From the NCBI RefSeq assembly GCF_030813695.1, contig NZ_JAUSVA010000002.1, positions 2,976,001 to 3,040,000 of the forward strand: DNA of 64,000 bases, in the 5' to 3' direction. The translations under genes were made by a program, and so were the position numbers. This document shows, in pieces, positions 13,565 to 22,495 of this stretch; position 1 is the first letter of the stretch; each line of letters begins with the position of its first letter. Under the pieces are notes generated by a model that made no database searches, was not told where the DNA came from, and was given only the letters and a program-made list of their open reading frames with translations. The stretch is from Kitasatospora herbaricolor (lineage in GTDB: Bacteria > Actinomycetota > Actinomycetes > Streptomycetales > Streptomycetaceae).

Positions 13565-13804
13565 GGTTCGCCGTGCGCGCCCGGTGGGCCGGTCGCGGCA
13601 GCAGCAGACGGCCCCGGAAGGCCGTCCCGGGCAGCATAGCCGGTCGATCACCCGTGATGCGCGCCGGGGGCGCACATGGGTACGCGGGCCCGGTGCCCTC
13701 CCCGTCCGGGCGAATCCCGGTGGCCCGGCCGACCCCCGGGCCCGATCCTGGGAGCCGACGAGCCGGCCCGGTCCACGGTCCGGCGCGGCGCGGAGGGTGC
13801 CGGG

Positions 13805-14695
13805 GTGCGGCGGATGACGATGCGTGAGCTGACCGCGGGAACCTGCGCCCTGGCCCTCGCGCTGGCCTGCGCGGGGTGTCTGTCCCCGGCCGGGCCGCCC
13901 GCCGCCACGGCGTCCGGCACCCCGACCACCGGCACCCCGGCACCGGGCACCCCGACGCCGGCGGCCGGCGGCACCGACGCGGTGCACGGCTGGACCAAGG
14001 ACCGGATCCGAGCCGCCGTCGCCGAGCACCCCGGGACGACCCGCACCGCCGCTCCCACCGCGCTGAACAGCCTGGTCGGGGCGGTCTTCACACATTCGGC
14101 CGCCGGCGACCACTTCTGCACCGCGAGCGTCGTCGACAGCGCCGGCCTCAACCTGATCGTCACCGCCGCGCACTGCGTCGACGACCCGCGCCTCGGGCCG
14201 CGCGGCGACCTGGTGTTCGTCCCCGGCTACCGCGCCGGCGAGACCCCGAACGGCGTCTGGCCGCTGCTGTCGGTGACGGTCGACCCGCGCTGGGAGGAGT
14301 CCGGCGATCCCGACATCGACGTCGCCTTCGCGGTCGTCGCCCCGCAGAACGGCCGGCAGGTGCAGCAGGTGCTCGGCGCCAACCTGCTGGGCATCGACCG
14401 GGACCACCGGCTGCCGGTGAAGGTGACCGGCTACCCGAGCAGCGGCGACCTTCCCATCACCTGCAGCAACACCTCGCAGGAGCAGAGCCCGACCCAGCTG
14501 CGGATCGACTGCCCGGACTACACCGGCGGCACCAGCGGTAGCCCCTGGGTGACCGACTTCGACCCGGCCACCATGACCGGCACCGTGGTCGGGGTGATAG
14601 GCGGCTACCAGCAGGGCGGCGACACCCCCGACATCTCGTACAGCAGTTACTTCGGCGAGGACGTGCAGGCCCTGTACGACCGGGCCACCGGGTGA
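13805..14695 (+). CDS. secreted trypsin-like serine protease homologue (first of a tandem pair)
   Basis: A 296-aa exported protein. The start is GTG 13805, chosen for the GGAGGG site 7 bases upstream; ATG 13814 is the alternative. An Arg-rich n-region, a hydrophobic core and CAGC near residue 24 suggest a signal peptide, perhaps of a lipoprotein though the lipobox is imperfect. A Thr/Pro/Gly linker follows. The chymotrypsin-fold triad is visible: His in TAAHC, Asp in DPDIDVAF, and Ser in YTGGTSGSPW. It is about 50% identical by eye to the next gene, which points to tandem duplication. Confidence 0.9.
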   Translation: MRRMTMRELTAGTCALALALACAGCLSPAGPPAATASGTPTTGTPAPGTPTPAAGGTDAVHGWTKDRIRAAVAEHPGTTRTAAPTALNSLVGAVFTHSAAGDHFCTASVVDSAGLNLIVTAAHCVDDPRLGPRGDLVFVPGYRAGETPNGVWPLLSVTVDPRWEESGDPDIDVAFAVVAPQNGRQVQQVLGANLLGIDRDHRLPVKVTGYPSSGDLPITCSNTSQEQSPTQLRIDCPDYTGGTSGSPWVTDFDPATMTGTVVGVIGGYQQGGDTPDISYSSYFGEDVQALYDRATG

Positions 14696-14856
14696 GCGGG
14701 CCGGGCGGTGGCGCCGCCCCCGTCCGGACTGGTAGATCTTCCAGGTACGGGGCGCCGGACGACGGCGGCCCGGCGCGCCGGACGGCCGGCCCCCGGCGCG
14801 GCGCCCGTACACCCGACACGCGGCCGCCGGACGCGAGGACGAGAGGCGGAGTCCTG

Positions 14857-15606
14857 ATGGCACTCGGCCCGGCCCGGCCCGTACGCGCTCGGCTGCTGCC
14901 CCCCGCGGCCGCCCTGCTGATCGCCGCCACCGCCTGCAGCGCCGCCGTCGAGGCGCCCCCGGCGGCCCGCACCGCTCCCCGGGACGCCGCCGGGGACCGC
15001 GTCGGCACGCTCTCCCTCGGCACCGCCCAGGGGCCCCGCGCCTGTACGGCCAGCGTGGTGCGCAGCCCCCGGCACAACCTGCTGGTCACCGCCGCGCACT
15101 GCGTGGTGCCGGACGACTACGGCCCGCAGGAGGGCCTGGTTTTCACCCCCGGCTACCGCAACGGCACGTCCCCGTACGGCAGCTGGGCGCTGGACGCGGT
15201 GACCGTCGACCCGCGCTGGAGCGAGGAGGCCGACCCCGAGTACGACGTGGCGTTCGTCACGGTGAAGCCGTCGGGGGGCCGCCAGATCGAGGACGTGGTC
15301 GGCGGCAACAGCCTCGGCGGCGAGAGCGGCTTCGGGCTGGCCGTCTCGGTGACCGGCTACCCGAACGGCGGCGAGGAGCCGATCACCTGCTCCACCCGGA
15401 CGGCCTCGCAGAGCCCCACCCAGGAGCGCTTCGACTGCGACGGCTACACGGACGGCACCAGCGGCAGCCCCTGGATCACCGGGGCCGGCGCGGTGGTGGG
15501 CGTGATCGGCGGCTACCAGGAGGGCGGGGACACCCCGCGGATCTCCTACAGCGTGACCTTCGACGAGCGGGTCACCGAGCTCTACCACCGGGCGGCGACC
15601 GGCTGA
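14857..15606 (+). CDS. secreted trypsin-like serine protease homologue (second of a tandem pair)
   Basis: A 249-aa paralogue of the preceding protein with a much shorter linker between signal peptide and catalytic domain. The triad is intact: LVTAAHCVV, DPEYDVAFV and YTDGTSGSPW. Blocks shared with its neighbour include TVDPRW, GVIGGYQ, GGDTP and the QSPTQ-x-R-x-DC segment. The ATG at 14857 follows GAGGCGGAG. The gap of 161 bp to the first copy suggests its own promoter or a read-through unit. The G-T-S-G-S-P-W nucleophile context resembles glutamyl endopeptidase-like secreted proteases, but specificity cannot be assigned. Confidence 0.9.
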   Translation: MALGPARPVRARLLPPAAALLIAATACSAAVEAPPAARTAPRDAAGDRVGTLSLGTAQGPRACTASVVRSPRHNLLVTAAHCVVPDDYGPQEGLVFTPGYRNGTSPYGSWALDAVTVDPRWSEEADPEYDVAFVTVKPSGGRQIEDVVGGNSLGGESGFGLAVSVTGYPNGGEEPITCSTRTASQSPTQERFDCDGYTDGTSGSPWITGAGAVVGVIGGYQEGGDTPRISYSVTFDERVTELYHRAATG

Positions 15607-19815: not shown

Positions 19816-20796
19816 ATGACGATGACCACCGAGGACTCCCCCACCACGCCCCCGAACAGCGCCTCCGGCCCCGTACCGGACGCCGGGCCCGAGGCCGCCG
19901 AGCGGCTGCGCCTGGAGCTGCTGGCCTTCAAGGACGCCTCGGGGCTCAGCTACGCCAAGATCGGCGAGCGGACGCACTACGCCAAGTCCTCGTGGGAGCG
20001 CTGGGTCAACGGCAAGCAGTTCCCGCCCCGCGGGGCGGTGGAGAGCCTGGGCACCGCCTTCGAGCACGAGGTGGCCCCGCTGCTCGAACTGTGGGACCTC
20101 GCCGACCGGGAGCGCAGCGAGCGCGAGCAGGTGGCGGCCGGCGCGGCCGCCACCGGTGCCGGGGCGGCCGGCGCCGAGGGCACCGGCGCCGAGGACGGCG
20201 CGGCCGACGCACCGGCCGGACGCACCACCCGGTGGACCGCCCGCCGCGCGGTGGCCGCCGGGGCGCTCGCGGCCGTCCTGGTCGCCGCCCTGGTCCTGGT
20301 CCTCGGGCTGGCCCGGGACGGCGACGCCACGGACACGGCCGCCGGCGCCGCGCCCACCGTCGCCGCCACCGGCAGCGCGGCGGCCGCGCCCGCGCCCACC
20401 GGGTCCGCCTCCACCACCGCCTCCGCCCCCGCGACGCCGCGTCCGATCGGCTGCAGCGCGGCCGGCTGCAGCGGGAAGGACCCGGGCGCGATGGGCTGCA
20501 GCCAGGACGGCCAGACCCTCGTCCTGGGCAAGAACCAGGAGATCGTCATGGAGTTGCGCTACAGCAAGGCCTGCTCCGCGGCATGGGGCCGGATCACCTA
20601 CGCGGCGCCCAACGCCATCGTCTCGGCGGAGAACTCGGACGGGACCACCTCCCCGTACGCCGTGAAATGGGGCAACGACGCCTACTCGCCGATGGTGGAG
20701 CTGACCGGCGACAAGTCCGCCTGGGTCTGCGCCACCCTGCCCGACGGAGCCACCCGCGCCTGCACCGACCACGTGAAGGCGCCGGCCGCGCCCTGA
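19816..20796 (+). CDS. XRE-type helix-turn-helix protein with membrane helix and DUF2690 domain
   Basis: A 326-aa protein in three parts. The cytoplasmic N-terminus has an XRE fold (LLAFKDASGLSYAKIGERT followed by SSWERWVNGK). An Ala/Gly-rich linker and one transmembrane helix near residues 145-170 (VAAGALAAVLVAALVLVLGLA) follow. The outer C-terminal part is Cys-rich and matches DUF2690: GCSAAGCSGKDPGAMGC, YSKACSAAWGRI and VCATLPDG. The layout suggests a membrane-anchored regulator sensing something outside the cell. The start is ATG 19816 or 19822. A likely -10 element TATGCT lies near 19700. Partner and signal are unknown. Confidence 0.85.
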   Translation: MTMTTEDSPTTPPNSASGPVPDAGPEAAERLRLELLAFKDASGLSYAKIGERTHYAKSSWERWVNGKQFPPRGAVESLGTAFEHEVAPLLELWDLADRERSEREQVAAGAAATGAGAAGAEGTGAEDGAADAPAGRTTRWTARRAVAAGALAAVLVAALVLVLGLARDGDATDTAAGAAPTVAATGSAAAAPAPTGSASTTASAPATPRPIGCSAAGCSGKDPGAMGCSQDGQTLVLGKNQEIVMELRYSKACSAAWGRITYAAPNAIVSAENSDGTTSPYAVKWGNDAYSPMVELTGDKSAWVCATLPDGATRACTDHVKAPAAP

Positions 20797-20959
20797 GGCC
20801 TGCCTTCCGCCCGGCCGAAGGAGCCGCCGGACAGCCGACACCGTCCCCACTCCGCGACGTCCCTGCAGGTCAGAGCCTTGGGGACGCCGCGGCCCGGTTG
20901 GGGACGGCGTGGAGCTGGACCGCGCGGTGGGCCGGGCCGGAGCATGGTGATCACCGCAG

Positions 20960-20979
20960 GGAAGGCGTCCTCGCCTTCC
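20960..20979 (+). promoter_or_regulatory. hairpin in the leader of the 57-codon ORF
   Basis: GGAAGGCG (20960-20967) pairs perfectly with CGCCTTCC (20972-20979) around a TCCT loop, 52 bp before the small ORF. A second G+C-rich inverted repeat follows directly (CGGGCCC / GGGCCCG near 20982-20998). The pair could be an attenuator or the terminator of the upstream gene. Confidence 0.4.
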
Positions 20980-21031
20980 GTCGGGCCCGCCGGGCCCGTC
21001 GTCCGCGCGGCCGATCTCCACGGAGTCCCTC

Positions 21032-21205
21032 ATGTCCGTCGGCTCGCTGCTCGACCGCAGCTGCCTCCCGTCCGTCCTGACCCGCCCGGCCGCGGCCGGC
21101 CCCGCCGGAGCGCGCGGCCCCGCCGCCTCCGCCACCACCGCCGCCCCGGGCACCGGCCTCGCCGGCCTGGCCCGGCCGCTCGCCAACAACAGCATCTGGG
21201 GCTGA
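21032..21205 (+). CDS. small ORF, 57 aa, function unknown
   Basis: An ATG behind a GGAG 7 bases upstream opens a 57-codon frame ending at TGA 21203-21205. All but one sense codon after the ATG end in G or C (the exception is one GGA), a coding signature for this genome that the other frames lack. The product starts MSVGSLLDRSCLP, has an Ala/Gly/Pro-rich middle and ends ARPLANNSIWG. It contains one Cys and one Trp, and no transmembrane helix or classical signal peptide is evident. I recognise no family. The neighbours are the DUF2690 gene upstream (same strand) and hrdA, which converges 33 bp away. Confidence 0.55.
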   Translation: MSVGSLLDRSCLPSVLTRPAAAGPAGARGPAASATTAAPGTGLAGLARPLANNSIWG

Positions 21206-21238: not shown

Positions 21239-22495
21239 TCAGTCCAGGTAGCCGCGGAGCTGCTCGGCGAAGGCGTGGTCGCGCAGTTTGCCGAGGGTCT
21301 TCGACTCGATCTGGCGGATCCGCTCACGGGTGACCCCGAAGAGGTGCCCGATCTCCTCCAGGGTGCGCGGGCGCCCGTCGTCCAGGCCGTAGCGCAGTTG
21401 CACCACCTGCCGTTCGCGTTCGCCGAGGGTGGCCAGCACGGCCTCCAGGTGCCGGCGCAGCAGCAGGAACGAGGCCGACTCGACGGGTGAGGCCGCGTCG
21501 GCGTCCTCGATCAGGTCGCCGAGGGCCACGTCGTCCTCCTCGCCGACCGGGGTGTGCAGCGAGATCGGCTCCTGGGCCAGGCGCAGCACCTCGCGGATCC
21601 GGGTCTCCGGCAGCTCCAGGACGGCGGCGATGTCGGCCGGGGTCGGCTCGACGCCGCGCTCCTGGAGCAGTCCCCGCTGGATCCGGATCACCCGGTTGAT
21701 CAGCTCGACCACGTGCACCGGGACCCGGATGGTGCGGGCCTGGTCCGCGAGGGCCCGGCTCATCGCCTGCCGGATCCACCAGGTCGCGTAGGTGGAGAAC
21801 TTGTAGCCCCGGGTGTAGTCGAACTTCTCCACCGCCCGGATCAGGCCGACGTTGCCCTCCTGGACCAGGTCGAGCATGGTCAGGCCGCGTCCGATGTAGC
21901 GCTTGGCCACCGAGACCACCAGGCGCAGGTTGGCCTCGATGAGCCGGCGCTTGGCGATCCGGCCGAGCACCACCAGACGGTCGAGCTCGTCGGCGAGGCG
22001 GTCGTCCGGGCCCGGGGTGCGGGAGAGCCGCTCCTCGGCGAACAGGCCGGCCTCGACCTGGCGGGCGAGCTCGACCTCCTCCGCCGCGGTCAGCAGCCGG
22101 ACCCGTCCGATCTCGCGCAGGTACTGGCGGAACAGGTCCGCGGCGGGGCCGGCGGCGGCGTCCAGGGAGGCCGCCCGGGCCGGCCCATCGCCGGGCCCTT
22201 CGTCGGGCTCCTCGACGGGCTCCTCGACGGGCTCCTCGGGCGGCTCCTCGACGAGCTCCTGGGCGGGATCCTCGACAAGCTCCTCCGGCGGCTCCTCGAC
22301 GGGTACCGCCGGCCGGCCGCCGGGGGTACCGGACCGGGCATGGGGCAGCTCCGGACCTGGTGGGCGCGGGCTCGCGGCGCCCCGGCCCGAGGCCTCCCGG
22401 CCGGGGCCGTGCGGGCCCGGGAGATCGGCGCTGTCGAAGGTGTCGGGGGTCCGGGTCGGCGTAGGACGAACTGTCGCGGCTGGGTCCACGGGCAT
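21239..22495 (-). CDS. hrdA: principal-type RNA polymerase sigma factor, HrdA-like
   Basis: A 418-aa sigma-70 protein. A long Glu/Pro-rich N-terminus (residues about 60-115, repeated EEP units) replaces the usual region 1.1. Conserved parts follow: region 1.2 ([21 protein letters not shown]), 2.1-2.4 ([50 protein letters not shown]), 3 ([15 protein letters not shown]) and the 4.2 helix-turn-helix ([28 protein letters not shown]). Residues reading -10 and -35 match group 1/2 factors. In Streptomyces coelicolor the gene beside dnaG is hrdA, a dispensable HrdB paralogue. The ATG at 22495 has GAGGGG directly against it, too close for an ideal ribosome site, so the start is uncertain. Confidence 0.9.

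Follow-up and report, generated by a model that had tools for sequence, protein, structure and literature searches.

The window analysed here, a 64,000-nucleotide stretch of the Kitasatospora herbaricolor genome, contains a 57-codon ORF (positions 21032-21205, + strand, ATG to TGA), which, judged from its sequence, we favour as a lineage-restricted orphan small-protein gene of a Kitasatospora clade of three species. It is probably a real, unannotated, and young small gene that is ordinary in kind. A preliminary description of this DNA had reported a ribosome site, an ATG, 57 codons, and a stop, with nearly every third base being G or C, in the gap between a DUF2690 regulator and hrdA, and all of this was confirmed: a GGAG precedes the ATG by 6 nt, the third base is G or C in 56 of the 57 codons, and Pfam agrees with both neighbours, the sigma-70 gene being convergent and adjoining dnaG. 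The gap between the two genes is 440 bp long with a G+C content of 78.5%, and the ORF ends 33 bp from hrdA. The elements of the locus are as follows.

Positions 19816 to 20796, + strand: upstream neighbour, an XRE helix-turn-helix protein with one TM segment and DUF2690 (Pfam PF13560 and PF10901; TM peak at residues 145-163).
Positions 21022 to 21025, + strand: Shine-Dalgarno-like GGAG with a 6-nt spacer to the ATG, inside the longest invariant run (21007-21050).
Positions 21032 to 21205, + strand: small ORF, product MSVGSLLDRSCLPSVLTRPAAAGPAGARGPAASATTAAPGTGLAGLARPLANNSIWG, 5.4 kDa, pI 11.5 (codon statistics; orthologues in K. indigofera and genome G079).
Positions 21239 to 22495, - strand: hrdA, a primary-type sigma-70 factor, adjoining dnaG and convergent to the ORF (Pfam sigma-70 regions 1.2-4; start placed at an in-frame ATG).

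An ORF of such length is expected by chance because the gap is so rich in G+C, and 78% of the gap shuffles contained an ORF of at least 57 codons on some strand. This is one of the points in favour of a possible, if not preferred, reading, in which the ORF is open by chance within non-coding DNA that is conserved and the gap represents a 3' region of the DUF2690 gene or a regulatory RNA. The codon composition argues against that reading. The G+C contents at codon positions 1, 2, and 3 of the ORF are 0.72, 0.75, and 0.98, respectively; the excess of the third over the second position is significant for codons 2-57 of the window ORF (Fisher p=0.0009) and is also present in the ORFs of K. indigofera and G079 (p=0.008 each). 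The skew is limited to the ORF and begins at the ATG, the 27 codons 5' of which show no G/C-skew in any of the three species (p=1 in the window). In addition, the codon score of the ORF exceeds those of ~98% of spurious ORFs and of all five other frames, and none of 5000 dinucleotide-preserving shuffles of the gap yielded an ORF of at least 57 codons with an equal codon log-odds or a GC3 of at least 0.98. The codon composition, together with an intact syntenic frame and an identical NNSIWG end in three species, upholds the earlier view that the ORF is more than chance. No E. coli-type promoter was found for the ORF, a scan that says little for Kitasatospora.

The coding signal could also derive from an antisense ORF or from what is left of a longer, decayed gene in the same frame, which we consider improbable. 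The antisense frame with shared third positions is open and has an equal skew within the ORF, and in the 81 bp preceding the ORF, substitutions fall preferentially on the third positions of both frames. However, the skew stops at the ORF bounds in either frame, the antisense ORFs differ in length among the species (416, 90, and 116 aa; that of the window extends into the DUF2690 gene), and the antisense codon score is below that of the + strand ORF. A search of the genus with the antisense ORF found the same three species only, and it was rejected as a gene. As for a remnant, the frame contains no ATG, GTG, or TTG codon from the upstream stop to position 21032, and the searches recovered no parent gene. 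Of 15 pairwise changes in the 81 bp ahead of the ATG (20951-21031), 9 fall on the third position of the ORF frame, which is too small a number of events for certainty.

The ORF is present in 3 of 70 Kitasatospora genomes (the window, K. indigofera JCM 4646, and G079), with the same length and in the same place. A profile search of a 395-genome sample of the family retrieved only these three carriers above noise, a degenerate pattern for NNSIWG-stop gave no match in the other 392 genomes of this sample, and scanning 84,980 species genomes for the exact codons gave K. indigofera as the sole match. Thus, the 'conserved-looking' end of the preliminary description holds inside the three-species clade, but not beyond it. 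No useful relative was found in Pfam, NCBIfam, Rfam, plasmids, phages, viral contigs, or the PDB, and PHROGs gave a non-significant match only. A protein search of a genome collection missed K. indigofera despite its presence there, probably because the tblastn confirmation step masked the low-complexity middle of the product, and this negative result was set aside. Weak matches in relatives appear to be Ala/Pro-rich segments of other frames; two such loci that were read (L112 and L117) are not homologues, and a gapped 76% match in Streptomyces-side DNA from another genus of the family (L108) lies inside a different open frame and was rejected.

Thirty hrdA loci were fetched from the genus, namely those of the three carriers and 27 others, and the ORF is absent from all of the latter. 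Among these 27 loci, GadB adjoins hrdA in 13 (at distances of 7-118 bp where measured), a divergent DUF2690 gene does so in 12 (at most 69 bp away where measured), and another neighbour is found beside hrdA in the remaining 2. In the nearest outgroup (G089), whose hrdA fragment is 93% identical, GadB is the immediate neighbour of hrdA. A search with a C-terminal fragment of the DUF2690 protein that the carriers encode at this locus gave no match at E <= 1e-20 among the remaining 67 genomes of the genus. These comparisons indicate that the three-species clade gained the ORF and its leader; either an insertion or a de novo origin would be compatible with the sequences. Across the genus, XRE-DUF2690 membrane regulators recur beside hrdA, though patchily (loci L083-L104).

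The alignment of the three species (the window, K. indigofera, and G079) has 368 indel-free columns, 52 of them variable. The frame is intact in all three species and 42 of the 57 residues are invariant; this intact frame is weak evidence, since the species are only ~10% diverged. Variation is distributed unevenly over three segments.

Positions 21032 to 21073, + strand: conserved N-terminal codons 1-14, MSVGSL..RSCLPS (2 of 42 columns variable).
Positions 21074 to 21172, + strand: variable Ala/Gly/Pro/Thr linker, codons 15-47 (20 of 99 columns variable).
Positions 21173 to 21205, + strand: conserved C-terminal codons RPLANNSIWG and stop (1 of 33 columns variable, synonymous).

The NNSIWG-stop sequence is identical in the three species. 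The difference between the two ends (3 of 75 columns variable) and the linker (20 of 99) has a Fisher p of 0.0015, for a partition picked after viewing the data, and 44 consecutive invariant bp (21007-21050), more than anywhere else in the alignment, take in the ribosome site, the ATG, and the codons that follow it (P=0.04 by column permutation). Conservation is highest at the ribosome site and start and at the C-terminus, which again argues against a chance frame. On the other hand, the dN/dS values of the ORF (0.56, 1.04, and 1.43 among the three species) are near 1, as such a frame would predict, versus 0.07-0.09 for hrdA and 0.44-0.53 for the DUF2690 gene in the same species. The preliminary description had named two kinds of observation that would speak against a gene: pairwise substitutions did prove to be evenly spread over the codon positions (5, 3, 6; 5, 7, 5; and 5, 8, 4), while the frame and the C-terminal residues are conserved. 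With such an even spread among three species only ~10% apart, the substitutions are compatible with purifying selection on the protein as well as with its absence. Since conservation of the ends extends to their synonymous sites, and part of the non-coding leader is conserved too, a constraint at the DNA or RNA level is possible.

The leader between the DUF2690 gene and the ORF contains two structured regions.

Positions 20838 to 20916, + strand: inverted-repeat region in which CGTCCC and GGGGACG each form two arms (alignment fold z about -3, both strands).
Positions 20960 to 20998, + strand: two perfect hairpins, GGAAGGCG/CGCCTTCC and CGGGCCC/GGGCCCG (fold z=-3.6).

The hairpins noted earlier before the ORF are real (20960-20979 and 20982-20998), and the larger inverted repeat is added to them. 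The stem of the first hairpin is invariant in the three species and the second has a mismatch in G079. Nested or alternative pairing of the arms is possible in the inverted-repeat region, which has no Rfam match; it includes a 26-nt block (20853-20878) that is invariant in the three species, and K. indigofera carries one compensatory change, from C-G to A-U. The leader as a whole (20838-21031) is indel-free and partly invariant across the three species, and together with the fold score and the compensatory pair change this counts in favour of a conserved non-coding stretch harbouring a chance frame. The leader could be a terminator of the DUF2690 gene, a 5' UTR element, or an independent RNA.

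The preliminary description had also proposed that the product is a small signalling, leader-type, or regulatory peptide, a suggestion that found no support in an export stretch, TPR, or RiPP-type enzyme, or in the convergent orientation of hrdA. A leader-peptide role is unlikely because hrdA, the sole downstream gene, is convergent and leaves nothing to control. An exported signal is likewise unlikely, since the product contains neither an export-type hydrophobic stretch nor a hydrophobic N-terminus (maximum 15-residue Kyte-Doolittle value, 0.87). This bears on a very unlikely reading in which the ORF encodes a secreted, RRNPP-like signalling propeptide, with NNSIWG as the mature signal and the XRE-DUF2690 membrane protein as the sensor. 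The variable linker followed by a conserved hexapeptide at the C-terminus and the adjoining HTH regulator with a TM segment, beyond which its DUF2690 domain sits, are features that fit; the missing export features, the lack of TPR in the regulator (Pfam identifies HTH_31 and DUF2690 only), and the occurrence of other Kitasatospora with a DUF2690 gene beside hrdA and no such peptide all count against it. It is very unlikely that NNSIWG would be a processed peptide signal to which the adjacent membrane-anchored XRE-DUF2690 regulator responds; to our knowledge, a peptide-sensor pair of this kind has not been described in actinobacteria. The XRE-DUF2690 gene is best regarded as context for the ORF, with a functional link as a candidate only. 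The leader-like N-terminus, linker, and abrupt polar-aromatic end would also suit a RiPP precursor whose modifying enzyme is encoded elsewhere, but no RiPP-type modification enzyme occurs among the Pfam-scanned genes at 10.4-31 kb of the window and the product matches no Pfam or NCBIfam precursor, making this reading extremely improbable. Elsewhere in the window, two adjoining trypsin-like protease genes are located at 13676-15606, with a 4-base overlap between the end of the first and the second.

In the small-gene reading that we prefer, the gene and a ~200-bp structured leader would go back to the ancestor of the three species, where they arose or were inserted between the XRE-DUF2690 gene and hrdA. 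Translation would most likely proceed from the ATG at 21032 via the GGAG, as predicted from the sequence, and yield a cytosolic protein of 5.4 kDa that is very basic, not hydrophobic, and probably disordered; AlphaFold2 gave no fold for the product (pLDDT 54), and the model is uninformative. Its ends are nearly invariant, and its Ala/Gly/Pro middle would be able to vary. We infer that any function would reside in the two short ends, acting as linear binding motifs, possibly in a minor accessory regulator inside the cell, and the gene may still be near the proto-gene stage. If translated, the ORF would clearly exemplify a young gene of a GC-rich genome: three sister species have it, the other loci read lack it, its codon bias is already complete, and its middle is without clear selection. 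It could then serve to study the origin of small genes in actinobacteria; otherwise, it would be an ordinary annotation gap.

RRNPP receptors are defined by their TPRs (PMC10075063). The ORF resembles RRNPP propeptides in encoding a small protein beside an HTH regulator and in its conserved C-terminal hexapeptide, but differs from them in having no visible secretion signal and a neighbour without TPR (PMC10075063). Intergenic small ORFs and microproteins of Enterobacteriaceae, some of which have dN/dS values above 1 and which show high turnover (PMC11188072), are similar in being intergenic, 15-70 codons long, syntenic in few species, without a known domain, and unstructured. That set is of AT-rich intergenic origin and largely hydrophobic (PMC11188072), whereas the Kitasatospora ORF is GC-rich, basic, and not hydrophobic. 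For novel short ORFs of Mycobacterium tuberculosis, a positive G/C-skew was used to choose those that are probably functional (PMC9094748). Translation of these ORFs was measured, whereas that of the Kitasatospora ORF is deduced from its sequence; like them, it is an unannotated ORF of a GC-rich actinobacterium with a GC3 well above its GC2 (PMC9094748).
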